A DNA stretch of 36,320 bases from assembly GCA_937871715.1 (NCBI GenBank), contig CALMOE010000069.1:1-36320 (forward strand). Direction: 5' to 3'. The position numbers were made by a program, and so were the translations under genes. Source of the stretch: an uncultured Geobacter sp. GTDB lineage: Bacteria > Desulfobacterota > Desulfuromonadia > Geobacterales > DSM-12255. How positions within the stretch are numbered: position 1 is the first letter of the stretch; each line of letters opens with the position of its first letter. The notes beneath the pieces were generated by a model, which was not told where the DNA came from, made no database searches, and saw only the letters and a program-made list of their open reading frames with translations. Shown here in pieces: positions 2,356 through 36,320 of the stretch.

Positions 2356-3369
2356 TCAAAACCCCTCGGCCTTTGGATCCCGCCCCATCAGCTCAATTAC
2401 CGCGGTTCTGGCCGGCCTGTCGGCGTAGAGGATTTCATGGACCATGAAGGCGATGGGCATCTCCACCCCAATCTTCCTTGCCAGTCGGCAGGTGGACTCG
2501 GTGGTTTGCACCCCTTCGGCAACCATGCGCATCTCGCCGAGGATGTCGCTCAGGCGCCTCCCCTGACCGAGCTGGATGCCTACCGTCCGATTCCTGGAGA
2601 GATCGCCGGTGCAGGTGAGAACCAAGTCTCCCATGCCGGCAAGTCCGGCAAACGTCTCCCCCCTGGCCCCGAGAACAACGCCCAGGCGGCCGATCTCCGC
2701 AAGGCCGCGGGTTATGAGGGCAGCCCTGGTGTTGCTGCCGAATCCCAGCCCGTCGGCTATCCCTGCGGCAATGGCAATGACGTTCTTCACCGCCCCGCCG
2801 AGCTCGACGCCGATGATGTCGCTGTTGGTGTAGACGCGGAAATAGCTGCAGTTGAATGCTTCCTGCACGCTCCTGGCCACCCCGTGGTCAACTGCTGCTG
2901 CAACCACCGCGGTTGGCATCTCCATTGCCACCTCCCGGGCGAAGCTCGGCCCGGAGAGGACTGCAAAGCGGTTGTAGAGCTCTGCGGGGAGGAGCTCCTC
3001 GTAGATCTGGGAGACCAGCTTCAGGCTCTCCACCTCTATCCCCTTGGAGGCACTGACGATGATTGCATCGGCAGGAATATGGGGAATCACCTGCTGCAGA
3101 ACGGAGCGCAGGGACTGGGACGGGACGACGAAGAGGAGGAGATCCTTGCCGCTGACAACCTCCTGCAGCGAGCCGCTGAAGGAGAGATTGTCCGCAAGCC
3201 TTATCCCGGGGAGGTACATGCCGTTCTCCCTGACGGAGCCCATCTGTGCCACCAGCTCCTGCTCATAGGCCCAGAGGGTGACCCTGTGCCCCTTCTTGGC
3301 AAGCAGGTCCGCCAGGGTCGTACCCCAGCTTCCCGCCCCGATAACTCCGATGTTCGCTCTTGCCTGCAT
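2356..3369 (-). CDS. gpsA: Glycerol-3-phosphate dehydrogenase [NAD(P)+]
   Basis: Cytoplasmic enzyme that reduces dihydroxyacetone phosphate to sn-glycerol 3-phosphate, the backbone precursor of phospholipids. The 337-residue length is normal. The N-terminal Rossmann motif GAGSWGTTLA is at residues 11-20, SGPSFAREV occurs mid-protein, and the substrate-domain signature GAVKNVIAIAAG carries the catalytic Lys195; GLGFGSNTRAALITRG follows. The ATG at 3369 is used. It lies 64 bp downstream of the HEAT-like gene on the same strand, at the distal end of the dnaA-gyrA gene run. An ACTGCCG/CGGCAGT inverted repeat (3390-3415) stands in the leader. Confidence 0.97.
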   Translation of the reverse strand: MQARANIGVIGAGSWGTTLADLLAKKGHRVTLWAYEQELVAQMGSVRENGMYLPGIRLADNLSFSGSLQEVVSGKDLLLFVVPSQSLRSVLQQVIPHIPADAIIVSASKGIEVESLKLVSQIYEELLPAELYNRFAVLSGPSFAREVAMEMPTAVVAAAVDHGVARSVQEAFNCSYFRVYTNSDIIGVELGGAVKNVIAIAAGIADGLGFGSNTRAALITRGLAEIGRLGVVLGARGETFAGLAGMGDLVLTCTGDLSRNRTVGIQLGQGRRLSDILGEMRMVAEGVQTTESTCRLARKIGVEMPIAFMVHEILYADRPARTAVIELMGRDPKAEGF

Positions 3370-3433
3370 AAACTCCCCTGTTAATCTCTACTGCCGTTCA
3401 ACCCTGATCGGCAGTGACTTTCAATAACTTAAG

Positions 3434-4996
3434 CTACATCCAGCCATCATCCTCTGGATTGTTGCGCATGTCGTAACCTTCGCTCATCGCCTCCCTTGCA
3501 GCCATCAGGCTCTCCATTGCATAGCGGCGCAGAAATGGGTGGAGGTGGGGGGGGAGGGAAAACTGCGCGATACTCTCGGCAGCTGCAAGGGTAGCACGAA
3601 CCATCTCCGGGTCAACCCCGGCCCGGGCAAAGTAGTCAGCGTTGAGGAGGAGTCGTCGGGATATCTCTACCAGCCGGGGGGGGAACAGATCCTGGCAGAA
3701 TCCTGCCAGCAGCCTCTCCAGCTCTTCCGCCAGCTCTTCCCCTTGCAGGCGCTCCTCCAGGGAAGCCCACTGGGCAGCTGCCTCGTAAACCCCCTTGTCG
3801 GCAATGATCCATCCGGCAAAGAACTCGTCCTCGAACAGCTGGGCCGACATGGAGAGGAGCTTGGTGTTCACGCCGACTGCTGGAGAAGGGAGCTCGATGG
3901 TGTAGGGGCGCGGCTCGATCTCCTGCGGAGCAAAAACGGGCCTGCGCAAAAGGAACTCCGGCGGCAGGAGGTAACCCTCTTCCCTGGTGCGATGGATGGC
4001 ATCCCGCAAAAGCAGCAGGGCGTACTCTACAGGTACGGGCTCCACCAACTCCTCCGTGAGCCGGAGAGAAGCCCGCTCCTCATACTCGCCACTGCTCAGG
4101 CAGCTGTCCCCCCAGACCCCTTTCACCCCGGTGACATCGTGCAGCTGGAAATCCACGCTGTCAATCAGGCCGTCGTTGCGCCACCTGGCGAGCCAGAGGT
4201 AGCGGTAGCCACTGCCGTCCACCGGACCGGCATAGGCCGAATGGTAAGCCGGGCGTGACACCGGCCCGGGGGGCTCTTTGCAGGTAATCCCCACAAATGA
4301 GAGCCTTCTCAGACTCTGCGCAACCTTTTCCCGCAGCTCTCCGGGTGCATTGCCGCCGAACTCGGCCAGCAGGGACGCTGCCCTCGGCTCCCTGATCCTC
4401 CCCATGGCAGCGACAGCCTCTGCCGCCACCTCGACCTCGTCGTGCCAGAGAAGGAGGGAGAGAAAATCGAGTACGCGCGGATCTGAAAGCCTGCATAGCT
4501 CCCCGATAAAAGCGCGCTTCATCTCCTGCGACATGCAGCTGAAATCTTCCAGCAGCCAGAGTCTCCCCTCTTCCCCCTTGTCCATGAGAAGGGGGAAGGA
4601 TTCGGCCAGGGGACCCGGTATGCAGGAGAGGAGCACGGAAAAGGGGGGGACGGTCACGTCCACGCCGCAGTCCTCAAGGGTGGCCAGCAGGGCCGATTTC
4701 CCCTCCAGCTCCAGGTCCCGGCGCTTGAGGGCTATCTGGACTATCTGGTCGAACCAGTACTTGTCGTCGAAAAAATCCAGCAGATACGTGTACTTGGAGA
4801 TCAGGCTGCCGCTCTTCTCCCGCCAGAGCTTGCGCAGAAGGGGCTGGACGGCGGAGCGGCCGGCCTTGCGCAGCTGGTTGCCGATGTCGTCCATCTCGGC
4901 GTAGGTGATGTTCTCCTTCTTCAGCCTCTCAAGAAGCTGCAGAACCCCCAGGCGCTCCTTTAAGCTCCTGTCAATCTTACGGGTACGCTCTTCCAT
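3434..4996 (-). CDS. HEAT-like repeat protein of unknown function
   Basis: A 520-residue soluble protein with no signal peptide or membrane segment. The N-terminal half (to about residue 240) is built of amphipathic helices. One stretch, near VEVAAEAVAAMGRIREPRAASLLAEF, resembles a canonical HEAT/PBS-lyase repeat. The C-terminal half is a different, mixed region with no motif I recognise. It begins only 5 bp after the gyrA stop, so it is very probably co-transcribed with gyrA. By memory, Geobacter genomes carry a HEAT-repeat protein at this position. Function unknown; a protein-binding scaffold is an inference from the helical repeats. Confidence 0.85.
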   Translation of the reverse strand: MEERTRKIDRSLKERLGVLQLLERLKKENITYAEMDDIGNQLRKAGRSAVQPLLRKLWREKSGSLISKYTYLLDFFDDKYWFDQIVQIALKRRDLELEGKSALLATLEDCGVDVTVPPFSVLLSCIPGPLAESFPLLMDKGEEGRLWLLEDFSCMSQEMKRAFIGELCRLSDPRVLDFLSLLLWHDEVEVAAEAVAAMGRIREPRAASLLAEFGGNAPGELREKVAQSLRRLSFVGITCKEPPGPVSRPAYHSAYAGPVDGSGYRYLWLARWRNDGLIDSVDFQLHDVTGVKGVWGDSCLSSGEYEERASLRLTEELVEPVPVEYALLLLRDAIHRTREEGYLLPPEFLLRRPVFAPQEIEPRPYTIELPSPAVGVNTKLLSMSAQLFEDEFFAGWIIADKGVYEAAAQWASLEERLQGEELAEELERLLAGFCQDLFPPRLVEISRRLLLNADYFARAGVDPEMVRATLAAAESIAQFSLPPHLHPFLRRYAMESLMAAREAMSEGYDMRNNPEDDGWM

Positions 4997-5001
4997 GATA
5001 C

Positions 5002-7578
<2,577 letters not shown>

Positions 7579-7594
7579 GAATAAACCTTTTCGG

Positions 7595-7661
7595 CCACAG
7601 GCCACGGGCTGAGGGATCGAGGTTTTCCCCCGTGCCTCTCACCTCGCGCCTCGTGCCTGTC
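7595..7661. repeat. Heptad-periodic inverted spacer between gyrB and gyrA
   Basis: On the plus strand, four 7-base units ending in GG (first CCACAGG at 7595-7601, last ATCGAGG at 7616-7622) are followed by TTTT. Five units of complementary type then occupy 7627-7661 (for example GCCTCTC, GCCTCGT). The two arrays can pair imperfectly, so the spacer can fold into a long G/C-rich hairpin in the gyrB-gyrA transcript. No promoter is apparent within it. Related structures lie at 33020-33106 and 35088-35212. Confidence 0.65.
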
Positions 7662-7662
7662 G

Positions 7663-10050
<2,388 letters not shown>

Positions 10051-20790: not shown

Positions 20791-21519
20791 ATGCTTAGAA
20801 AATTTACAGCCATCCTGATGCTGATTATCCTCACCCTCCCCTCCTGTACCACCTACAGGAGTCAGTATGTCTCCTTCCGCCCGCCTGAGGCTTATCTGAA
20901 CAACCAGAAGGTTGCGGGGATCTCCCTTGGTGGGGAGGCCTATGCGGACAGCGCCTCGGCCAGTGATGCCTTCGGCTTTGACATCAAGGGTGCAGGGCTC
21001 CTCCCGGTGCAGCTGGTGATGAACAATGAAAGCGGAAAGGGGGTGAAGATCGTCACCTCCCAGACCTTCCTGGTGGACAAGGAAGGCCGCTACTGGCAGG
21101 TGGTGCCTAACCACGTGGCCATTGACCGCCTCGACAAATCGACGGAGCTGGCCGGCTTCTTCGGTAAGGGGGCTGGCCAGGGGGCACTTATCGGCGCTGC
21201 CGGAGGTGCCATCCTGGGCGCAGCTCTGGGGATAGTCTCCGGTAGCAATGTTGGCAATGCCATGGGCAAGGGGGCTGCCCTTGGTGGGGCTGGCGGTGCC
21301 ATCATCGGCGGAGCCAAGGAAGGCACCTCGCCGGAACGCTCCAACGACATAATAAGCGACATCAGGGCCAAGGGGCTAGAAGGCAAGGTGGTTCCCGCCG
21401 ATTCCCTTGCCAATGGCTTCCTCTTCTTCCCCGGTGAGGCACAGTCTGCAAAGGCTATCAAGCTGCAGATCAAAGAGGTGGACACGGAGAAGATTCACTC
21501 AATAATGCTCAATTTCTAG
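20791..21519 (+). CDS. Glycine-zipper lipoprotein of unknown function
   Basis: A 242-residue predicted lipoprotein. It has a basic-hydrophobic signal and lipobox LPSC with Cys19 as the lipidation site. The middle (about residues 125-175) is a Gly/Ala-rich segment with GxxxG-type spacing typical of glycine-zipper membrane segments. A beta-rich region follows: KGLEGKVVPADSLANGFLFFPG, a pattern I associate with binding or envelope lipoproteins. AAGGAG precedes the ATG. hemH follows after 12 bp, so the two are probably one transcript. The exact function is not recognised. Confidence 0.85.
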   Translation: MLRKFTAILMLIILTLPSCTTYRSQYVSFRPPEAYLNNQKVAGISLGGEAYADSASASDAFGFDIKGAGLLPVQLVMNNESGKGVKIVTSQTFLVDKEGRYWQVVPNHVAIDRLDKSTELAGFFGKGAGQGALIGAAGGAILGAALGIVSGSNVGNAMGKGAALGGAGGAIIGGAKEGTSPERSNDIISDIRAKGLEGKVVPADSLANGFLFFPGEAQSAKAIKLQIKEVDTEKIHSIMLNF

Positions 21520-32479: not shown

Positions 32480-33022
32480 GTGAAAAAGAAGAGCCACGAA
32501 GAAGTTGAAGTCCCAGAGCAGCAAGCCGTGGAGGAGAGCGCGCCGCTGGACCGCATCCAGGAGTTGGAGACCCTCCTTGCTGCCAAGGAGGCCGAGGCCG
32601 CCGCGAACTGGGACAAGTTCGTCCGCGAACGTGCCGACCTGGAGAACTACCGCAGGCGGACCCAGAAGGAGAAGGAGGAGTTGATCAAGTACGGCAACGA
32701 GTCCCTTATCCTGGAGATTCTCCCCTCAGTGGACAACATGGAGCGGGCCTTGAACCATCTGGATGCGGAGAGCCAGGATCCGGTAATGGTAGGTATCCGC
32801 ATGACCCTGGAAATGCTTATGGGGGCTTTGAAGAAGTTCGGCGTAACTCCCGTTGAGGCGGCGCCGGGTGGCGGGTTCGACCCCGCCCTGCACCAGGCAA
32901 TGGGGCAGGTGGAGTCCCAGGAGTACCCGTCGGGGAGCATAGCCGAGGTCTTCCAGAAGGGGTACCTCCTCAACGAGAGGCTCCTGCGCCCGTCCATGGT
33001 GATGGTGGCGAAGAGTCAGTGA
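32480..33022 (+). CDS. grpE: Nucleotide exchange factor GrpE
   Basis: Dimeric cochaperone that releases ADP from DnaK. The 180 residues have an acidic, disordered start, the long dimer helix (about 20-75) with [22 protein letters not shown], and the beta-domain with [11 protein letters not shown] and [18 protein letters not shown]. The start is GTG at 32480, with AAGGAG 9 nt upstream. It sits between hrcA and dnaK; the grpE-dnaK gap is a 159-bp spacer with heptad repeats. Confidence 0.95.
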
Positions 33023-33181
33023 ATAGGGAATAGGGAAATCTGCAAGGGAAGAGTCTTACGGTAACTGCATTTGGTCTTTTACTGTTCACCGATCCCCGAT
33101 ACCGATTTTTTTATGAGGCCCCTTGTTTTTTCTGCGGGGGATAACTAGTTTTCAGATAGAACGAATTTCAAGGAGGCAGTA
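33020..33181. repeat. grpE-dnaK spacer with heptad repeats
   Basis: Repeating 7-base units GAATAGG begin at the grpE stop (about 33020-33036). Four units of the opposite strand sense lie at 33079-33106 (for example TCACCGA, TCCCCGA). The two arrays flank a non-repetitive centre. No second CIRCE and no convincing sigma-32 promoter was found, so dnaK probably relies on the hrcA transcript. The dnaK ribosome site AAGGAGG is at the right end. Confidence 0.55.
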
Positions 33182-35087: not shown

Positions 35088-35212
35088 ACGGGCTCCGGGC
35101 TGAGGGCTCGGGGCACAGGGCCAGTCGAAGAAAGGCGAAAGGCGTACAACCGTACCCTTTCGCCTTTTGCCGTAATTATTTTCCCTGAGCACCCAGCCCC
35201 GAACCCCGAGCC
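35088..35212. repeat. dnaK-dnaJ spacer: heptad arrays around a long hairpin
   Basis: Five 7-base units (ACGGGCT, CCGGGCT and three more, 35088-35122) and four of the opposite sense (35185-35212, for example CCGAACC, CCGAGCC) flank a strong central hairpin. The hairpin arms are 35131-35147 and 35152-35167, with 16 paired bases, one bulged C and a 4-nt loop. The whole spacer could fold as a nested stem. It may attenuate dnaJ relative to dnaK or be a mobile-type repeat. Confidence 0.7.
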
Positions 35213-35226
35213 AAAAGGATTATATT

Positions 35227-36320
35227 TTGGCAGACAAACGCGACTATTACGAGGTGCTGGGGGTAAACCGCAACGCCGCCGAGACGGAGATCAAGAAGGC
35301 CTTCAGGAAGATGGCGGTGCAGTATCACCCGGACAAGAACCCGGGGAACAAGGAGGCTGAGGAGAAGTTCAAGGAGCTCTCCGAAGCTTACGAGGTCCTC
35401 TCCGATCCCCAGAAGAGGGCCCAGTACGACCAGTTCGGCCATGCCGGCGTGAGCGGCGCCGGATTCTCCTCCGGCGGCTTCGGCGCCGGCTCCCCCTTCG
35501 GCGACATCTTCGGCGATATCTTCGGCGACATCTTCGGCGGAGGAGGCCGGCAGCGGAGCCGGGGGCGCCGGGGGGACGACCTGCAGTACAACCTGGAGAT
35601 CAGCTTCGAGGAGTCGGCCAGTGGGGTGGCGAAGGAGATTGAGGTCCCCTTTGCCAAGCGCTGCACAGTATGCGACGGCAGCGGTGCCAAGCCAGGGACC
35701 GAGCCGAAGAGCTGCCCGACCTGCAAGGGTGCTGGACAGGTCCGCTTCCAGCAGGGCTTCTTCAGCGTCAGCAAGACCTGCGGACAGTGCAACGGCGAAG
35801 GGCGCATTGTGGACAATCCTTGCACCGAGTGCCGGGGGACCGGATCGATCCGGGACAGGAAGAAACTCTCAGTCAAGGTCCCTCCCGGTGTGGAGACCGG
35901 CGTCCGCCTGAAGATGACCGGCGAGGGGGGGCAAGGCACAAAGGGTGGCGGCAACGGCGACCTGTACATCTACATCGAGGTAAGGGAGCACCCGATCTTC
36001 AGGCGCGAAGGGGACGACGTCATCTGCGAGACCCCCATCAGCTTCACCCAGGCGGCCCTGGGTTGCGAACTGGAGATCCCCACCCTGGAGGGTAAGGTCG
36101 CCATGAAGGTCCCCGATGGAACACAGACCGGCAGGATATTCCGCCTGCGCGGCAAGGGGTTCACATCCCTGCAGGGTTACGGCAAGGGGGATCAGCTGGT
36201 GGTCCTGAGGGTGGAGACCCCGAGCAACCTGAATTCCCGCCAGCGGGAGCTTCTGGAGGAGTTCGCCAGGATCAGCGGCGAAGAGATCAATCCGCAAAAC
36301 AAGAATTTCTTTGATAAAGT
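35227..36320 (+). CDS. dnaJ: Chaperone protein DnaJ (Hsp40), partial at window end
   Basis: Type I cochaperone that delivers clients to DnaK and stimulates its ATPase. The start is TTG at 35227, with AAGG 8 nt upstream; no ATG fits the frame. The reading frame is open to the last base, giving 364 complete codons, so only about 5-20 residues are missing. The J domain has the HPD motif in YHPDKN. A Gly/Phe region carries three FGDI units in tandem. Four zinc-binding CxxCxGxG motifs follow ([32 protein letters not shown]), then the substrate-binding domains. Confidence 0.96.

Follow-up and report, generated by a model that had tools for sequence, protein, structure and literature searches.

The spacer between gyrB and gyrA in this DNA belongs to a class of intercistronic hairpins that occurs throughout the genome and is built from convergent heptad arrays. 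Such hairpins are probably maintained by slippage and foldback copying, and kept as a folded gap in operon mRNAs (we place the probability of this reading at roughly 55%). The window, meaning the whole stretch of DNA that was analysed, is 36,320 nucleotides long and is contig C69 of a draft genome (G000; 304 contigs, 3.43 Mb). The interest does not lie in gyrase, as the gyr spacer is an ordinary member of the class.

Two opposed arrays with a 7-nt phase had been described in the earlier note on either side of a TTTT, and the coordinates given there are exact. In that frame, the units are CCACAGG, CCACGGG, CTGAGGG and ATCGAGG (7595-7622) and CCCCCGT, GCCTCTC, ACCTCGC, GCCTCGT and GCCTGTC (7627-7661). 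Read in the gyr sense, the gap contains a GAGG arm, GAAAA, a CC-phased arm and then the gyrA ribosome-binding site (Table 1). The 5′ arm has five units and begins 3 nt past the gyrB stop codon.

Table 1. Features of the window, with positions counted from its first nucleotide.
Feature	Position	Strand	Remarks
gyrA	5002..7580	-	ATG at 7580-7578; ORF call reaches 7605 (GTG)
gyrB-gyrA intercistronic spacer	7581..7662 (82 nt)	-	Mostly occupied by the heptad inverted pair
3′ pyrimidine-rich arm	7593..7622	-	+ strand GGCCACA GGCCACG GGCTGAG GGATCGA GG; CC-phased on the gyr-sense strand
TTTT, apical loop region	7623..7626	.	AAAA in gyr-sense RNA
5′ purine-rich arm	7628..7659	-	Gyr sense: CAGG CAC GAGG CGC GAGG TGA GAGG CAC GGGG
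gyrB	7663..10041	-	Stop codon 7663-7665
grpE-dnaK spacer, weak heptad traces	33018..33105	+	GAATAGG x2.4; GATCCCC/GATACC; doubtful member
dnaK-dnaJ spacer, nested heptad hairpin	35089..35212	+	Outer GGGCNNN arrays enclose an inner GAAAGGC hairpin

Over positions 7595-7661, there are 32 identities in 60 comparisons at lag 7, compared to 13-21 at each other lag from 3 to 14. The three highest-scoring 60-nt segments for lag 7 in the whole window start at 7592 (34 identities), 35087 (32) and 35153 (30), and the mean is 14.4. In first-order Markov simulations of the window (n=200), the highest lag-7 score was 33. The gyr site, which has the top lag-7 score in the window (34/60), is clear from its periodicity alone, because none of the 200 simulations reached 34. 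The dnaK-dnaJ case leans on structure too, because a score of 32 was reached in 11 of the simulations and 30 in 47. The fold predicted for the gyr spacer RNA in the operon sense has an energy of -35.1 kcal/mol (z -3.1). No matches to the Rfam 15 families were found within the window at gathering score.

The same design was thought to recur twice near dnaK. The dnaK-dnaJ gap is a clear case, and a better example of the design than the gyr gap. Its operon-sense RNA folds with -69.4 kcal/mol (z -7.2), and the design is conserved in a genome of the same genus (G001, L116:7640-7773). The site upstream of dnaK is doubtful, with 2.4 copies of GAATAGG and a fold (33015-33110) that is no better than those of shuffled sequences (z +1.93). 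Repeats of other kinds are present inside genes of the window. The interior of dnaJ carries a 12-nt tandem repeat, CTTCGGCGACAT, in 3.7 copies (35496-35539), and two 50-nt direct repeats, 90 nt apart, are located at 21175-21314 in a Gly/Ala-rich ORF (20791-21519), which we take to resemble a glycine zipper.

The suggestion of a genome-wide class of intergenic heptads is borne out by pattern searches of G000. The pattern GAGGNNCGAGGNNCGAGG (GAGGNNC heptads) gave 67 matches, compared to 1 for the reversed control, and GAGGYNNGAGGYNNGAGG (the GAGGYNN form) gave 44, compared to 0 when the pattern was read backwards. These 44 matches group into 20 loci. A convergent partner, defined as three CCTC heptads with at most 2 mismatches within 150 nt, is found at 14 of the 20 loci and a divergent one at none; the same rule is satisfied at 52 of 4000 random places. 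The arrays are thus paired in opposite sense, as had been proposed. Among the six loci lacking a partner by this rule, the gyr and atpD-atpC loci have one by eye, and one locus is at a contig end.

The arms of the GAGG elements consist of about five units (32 nt), with exactly five in 12 of the 20 left arrays. Longer arrays (seven to nine units) are mostly perfect GAGGTTC runs. In 13 GAGG pairs, two positions of the unit vary freely, and its A, G, G and last C hardly change. Single arrays exist as well (C96, C220, C248-like, and perfect GAGGTTC runs). G000 also uses other words, GGGCTNN (8 matches, compared to 2 for the control), GGTCAAC, AGCCTTT and GTGAGAA, and the GTGANNN pattern is not clearly enriched over its control (29 matches against 20). 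Three other descriptions were set aside. One word per genome does not fit, as G000, G001 and G010 (another genus of the same family) each use several. Stop-codon arrays were rejected since GTGANNN units give a stop in every frame and GAGGNNC units do not, and mimicry of the Shine-Dalgarno sequence by GAGG was rejected since the other words have no such likeness.

The period of seven is also seen when no word is specified. A word-blind scan at lag 7 of sampled DNA from five genomes found 55 arrays and 15 neighboring pairs. Nine of the pairs have a duplex energy of -18 kcal/mol or lower, and the purine-rich arm comes first in all nine. The control lags gave no such hairpin pairs for 8, 10 and 11, and four for lag 6. 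Among the spacer windows of G000, 9 of 193 score at least 18/28 at lag 7, compared to 0 to 3 for lags 5, 6, 8, 9, 10 and 11. The folding z scores of the 12 spacers tested range from -1.9 to -11.0. A broad scoring run listed many spurious G-rich coding stretches among its 56 items, 39 of which are unpaired. It was used for arm outlines only, and pairing was counted by the fixed rule given above.

The elements have a characteristic position relative to genes. ORF-based gene calls gave a readable upstream gene at 21 of 30 loci, and in these the element starts between -17 and +12 nt from the upstream stop codon (median 2). Most elements separate co-directional genes, at junctions that we take to include atpD-atpC, gyrB-gyrA, dnaK-dnaJ, sucC-sucD, hemA-hemC, argB-argD, rlmH-gpmI and nadK-recN; the element at C63 is located between converging genes. 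Since they lie mostly between co-directional genes, the elements should be part of operon mRNAs, a prediction from operon position only.

At the gyr junction the element has few counterparts. Of the 30 loci fetched, 20 have gyrB beside gyrA (that of the window and those of 19 relatives), and a lag-7 array is kept in one of the 19, G010 (20/28). The spacer in G001 (L052) has a different palindromic repeat, of the CCCTCCC...GGGAGAGGG type (z -2.3). Unrelated sequence without structure at orthologous spacers had been named in the earlier note as evidence against the idea, and by the lag-7 measure this is the situation in 18 of the 19 relatives at this junction, though not at the others. Because most relatives lack the gyr element, it is dispensable for a working gyr operon. 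At this junction, the element is either recent or dispensable.

The other junctions were compared by joining the 110-nt flanks of 27 G000 elements as one query against G001 and G010, which gave 20 spacers in G001 and 9 in G010, all chosen for their array in G000. A lag-7 array is present in 10 of the 20 orthologous spacers of G001, compared to 1 of 90 spacer windows sampled from that genome (p 3.9e-8), and in 7 of the 15 that are full-length. One of the ten, at C63, is at a different place within the spacer. In G010, the array is present in 7 of 9 orthologous spacers, compared to 4 of 57 windows (p 1.3e-5). C43b, C148a, C148b, C277, C288 and C9 had no match in G001, and C19, whose G001 match came without a locus, was left out.

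The heptad word often differs between the orthologous spacers, with word classes assigned by eye. At atpD-atpC, the word is GAGGNNC in G000, GGCTAAN in G001 and AGGCNNT in G010, and in a further genome (G004) a GGGCTAT array stops 21 nt before atpC, as placed by match coordinates. GAGGNNC is found together with GGGGCTC and GGGCTCT across the orthologues of C272, with GGGCTCT at C192, with GGGACTT at C248, and with GGGCTCA at C20. The word is common to G000 and G001 at C18, C174, C269, C298 and dnaK-dnaJ, and GGGCTNN arrays were found in G000, G001 and G010. In two G001 spacers where the heptad element of G000 is absent, other sequences were observed. The orthologue of C43 (L362) has a palindrome near GRCGTAGCGCTGCTACGCC, a sequence reported as the core of a short-RNA family of G. 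metallireducens in the sections consulted of that paper (PMC2700814), and the orthologue of C96 (L346) has a GCGGCGTAGC-like stretch, with a looser likeness.

The two arms of an element fit each other when the words differ. Own arms were compared with cross-species chimeras, using arms set by hand and chosen by eye, and they pair better in 13 of 13 comparisons between different words, by a mean of -12.2 kcal/mol; the 16 comparisons taken together give 14 negative differences, one zero and one positive. With automatic spacer halves, own arms are better in 9 of 10 comparisons between different words (mean -12.9 kcal/mol) and in 11 of 14 overall. At C174, the own arm pairs worse than the arm of the other species (+5.7 kcal/mol with hand-set arms, +9.8 with automatic ones), and the gyrB-gyrA test shows no difference (-0.1 and +0.2).

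Within the GAGG class of G000, own arms pair no better, and even a little worse, than arms swapped between loci. This holds in a set of 13 pairs, where choosing the arms by a GAGGY pattern introduces a bias in the left arm and the weak partners L006, L010 and L158 were dropped, and in a set of 16 pairs, where orientations were mixed, the partner rule was retained, and C63 and C127 were dropped. The pairing in this class therefore stems from the shared GAGG-C frame, and compensatory evolution arm by arm was rejected here. The complementarity of the variable bases in the 16 pairs is 0.22 within elements and 0.32 between them (p about 0.02, one-sided), the unexpected direction. This slight excess of mismatches may reflect the loss of perfect palindromes, chance, or bias from the pattern selection. 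The idea that the repeat stays self-complementary thus holds between words and species, where own arms are better by about 12-13 kcal/mol, but not within the GAGG class or at gyrB-gyrA.

Growth of the arrays by heptad slippage, also proposed in the earlier note, is supported by changes of whole units at orthologous spacers. The rlmH-gpmI-like spacer (C110) has about eight CTTTAGC and six CTGAGCC units in G001 and about two units in G000. At C269, there are five units in G001 and three in G000. Moreover, neighboring units share their free bases above chance (0.193, compared to 0.116; reached in 0.022 of simulations). Several contigs end inside arrays, and perfect GAGGTTC runs also occur singly. 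The breaks include the ends of C68 and C203 in G000 and the start of C19 in G010. Because assemblies break inside long heptad arrays, draft genomes undercount them.

In this class, a purine-rich arm runs from the upstream stop codon, followed by a short loop and a pyrimidine-rich arm that ends just before the next ribosome-binding site. Units would be gained and lost by 7-nt replication slippage, the step that the unit counts support. The coordinated changes in the two arms suggest that one arm is recopied from the other by foldback template switching, which would let the hairpin persist while the word turns over. What is retained would be a folded, untranslated gap, useful or at least safe in an operon mRNA. 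Most likely, the folded gap would protect the RNA between the cistrons against the loading of Rho and against endonucleases, and the element would act in stability and polarity rather than as a protein-binding word.

A stronger form of this proposal, which we hold only tentatively, is that the element is structure-first. Its position, 7-nt phase, convergent purine-first hairpin and arm length would be inherited, and the word would be rewritten in both arms within a bacterial family, with GAGGNNC, GGCTAAN, AGGCNNT, GGGCTCT and GGGACTT being the words exchanged at shared junctions. If true, this would need either a copying process that keeps the arms in step (slippage and foldback) or a factor acting in trans that tracks the word, and the 7-nt phasing itself would be the selected property. 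A hairpin that is kept while its word changes is a natural experiment that sets 'sequence matters' against 'structure and phase matter'. The atpD-atpC, hemA-hemC-like, rlmH-gpmI-like and dnaK-dnaJ spacers provide orthologous series for questions on slippage, foldback and operon mRNA.

The main alternative, a serious one although we consider it the less probable, is that the elements are a neutral by-product. Seven would be the most slippage-prone unit, gaps between genes would tolerate heptads, foldback would invert copies, and nothing would be selected; shared positions would reflect inheritance, and word changes fast turnover. Heptanucleotides are the commonest class of long simple sequence repeats in most genomes, and a 7-nt polymerase contact has been proposed as the cause (Mrazek, as cited in PMC4679880, sections consulted). 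Perfect GAGGTTC runs are seen as single arrays and where contigs end, the same word is found in unrelated phyla, the arms are untuned within the class, and most relatives manage without the gyr element, all as expected from neutrality. However, arrays that persist at orthologous spacers with both arms rewritten have more order than neutral decay predicts. The strict convergent, purine-first polarity and the conservation of the GAGG-C positions next to two free ones in each unit also argue against it.

G-quadruplex formation, which has been proposed for the GGGAATC repeats, with four or more G-tracts at 7-nt spacing acting on transcription or translation, would be an improbable explanation. It is consistent with the outer arm of dnaK-dnaJ, which is GGGN4 repeated, with the GGGCTNN arrays of the three genomes, and with the circular dichroism evidence reported for Xanthomonas repeats (PMC4692102, sections consulted). 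However, the tracts of the gyr arm are no longer than GG except at its end, and G-tracts are wholly absent from GTGANNN arrays; quadruplexes as the feature common to all elements were therefore set aside. Moreover, a complementary C-rich arm adjoins most arrays, which favors a duplex hairpin.

A transposase-driven mobile palindrome (REP/REPIN or MITE type) that inserts at stop codons is very unlikely. REP, BIME and REPIN palindromes are dispersed, often intercistronic and transcribed as hairpins, with a conserved sequence and a link to RAYT transposases. They share dispersed intercistronic hairpins with the G000 class and lack the 7-nt periodicity. The many dispersed palindromic copies, the CAGG...CCTG ends of many GAGG elements, and two Y1_Tnp (PF01797) genes near each other in the genome (G000:C262:612-863 and 3177-3506) agree with mobility. 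However, the two Y1_Tnp loci have no heptads or lag-7 signal (maximum 13), the copies vary in their free bases, and orthologous elements vary in word. An intrinsic terminator or attenuator between cistrons is just as hard to sustain. In its favor, the hairpins are strong, T-runs follow a few copies (C18, C174), and quadruplex-type repeats are, compared to controls, more often the place where Xanthomonas transcripts start or stop (PMC4692102, sections consulted). However, no U-tract follows the gyr or dnaK-dnaJ hairpin and elements are located inside operons (atpD-atpC, gyrB-gyrA) whose downstream genes are needed.

The class is not undescribed, as the earlier note had supposed. Heptad hairpins are already known as a kind, and both Xanthomonas GGGAATC heptads (PMC4692102) and G. 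metallireducens heptads (PMC2700814) are in print. In a search of openly accessible article texts, we found no description of one heptad word taking the place of another at orthologous hairpins. In G. metallireducens, according to the sections consulted, Gmet_H4 comprises 49 elements of four tandem GGGACCG heptads on one strand, also inside genes (PMC2700814). They resemble the G000 class as heptanucleotide arrays that are partly intergenic and probably belong to the same broad bacterial group; the 'class 3' sites of the same paper (five tandem heptads, MTYCTGA) are nearer in unit number. In marine Beggiatoaceae, TAACTGA heptamers are intergenic, occur in two to six copies and have been proposed to have a post-transcriptional role (PMC4679880). 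As described in the same sections, these differ from the G000 class as direct repeats of one strict word upstream of start codons, with one inverted case.

Exact 25-nt GAGGTTC arrays are found in at least 117 stretches in named genomes of many phyla. Of 97 genomes of the order, 37 have GAGGYNN arrays, in numbers as different as 101 in G035, 44 in G000 and 2 in G001. Given this wide and uneven spread, the GAGG word is recurrent and not a lineage marker. The stretches with GAGGTTC heptads (L174-L253) come from Halomonas, Shewanella, Polyangia, Desulfosporosinus and others. Several of the arrays are opposed by eye, and they adjoin other heptad words (AAGGTTC, GAACNNN, TTAGGTT, CAGTCCC).

The closest relatives are the GGGAATC and GGGGA(T/C)T heptads of Xanthomonas and Nostoc (Rehm et al. 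2015, PMC4692102). In the sections consulted, these are G-rich and intergenic, with a variable number of units. Those of Xanthomonas are mostly located between aligned ORFs within 50 bp of stop codons, and are either single or in convergent inverted pairs (70 cases in Xcc and 75 in Xac); 83% have the same place in the second species, where the pair type is usually kept. The G000 class is likewise over-represented, near stop codons, between aligned genes, and in convergent pairs or single. However, the heptads of Rehm et al. have one fixed word per genome and prefer four units, whereas G000 uses several words, with two or three free positions in each unit and arms of about five units, and in its relatives the word differs at one and the same spacer. 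Compared to the GGG tracts of those heptads, the gyr arm has GG except at its inner end, and the outer arm of dnaK-dnaJ has GGG. Many arms here lack the G-tracts required for three-tetrad quadruplexes, unlike those heptads. The G000 class therefore works like the heptads of Rehm et al. but is a variant of them.
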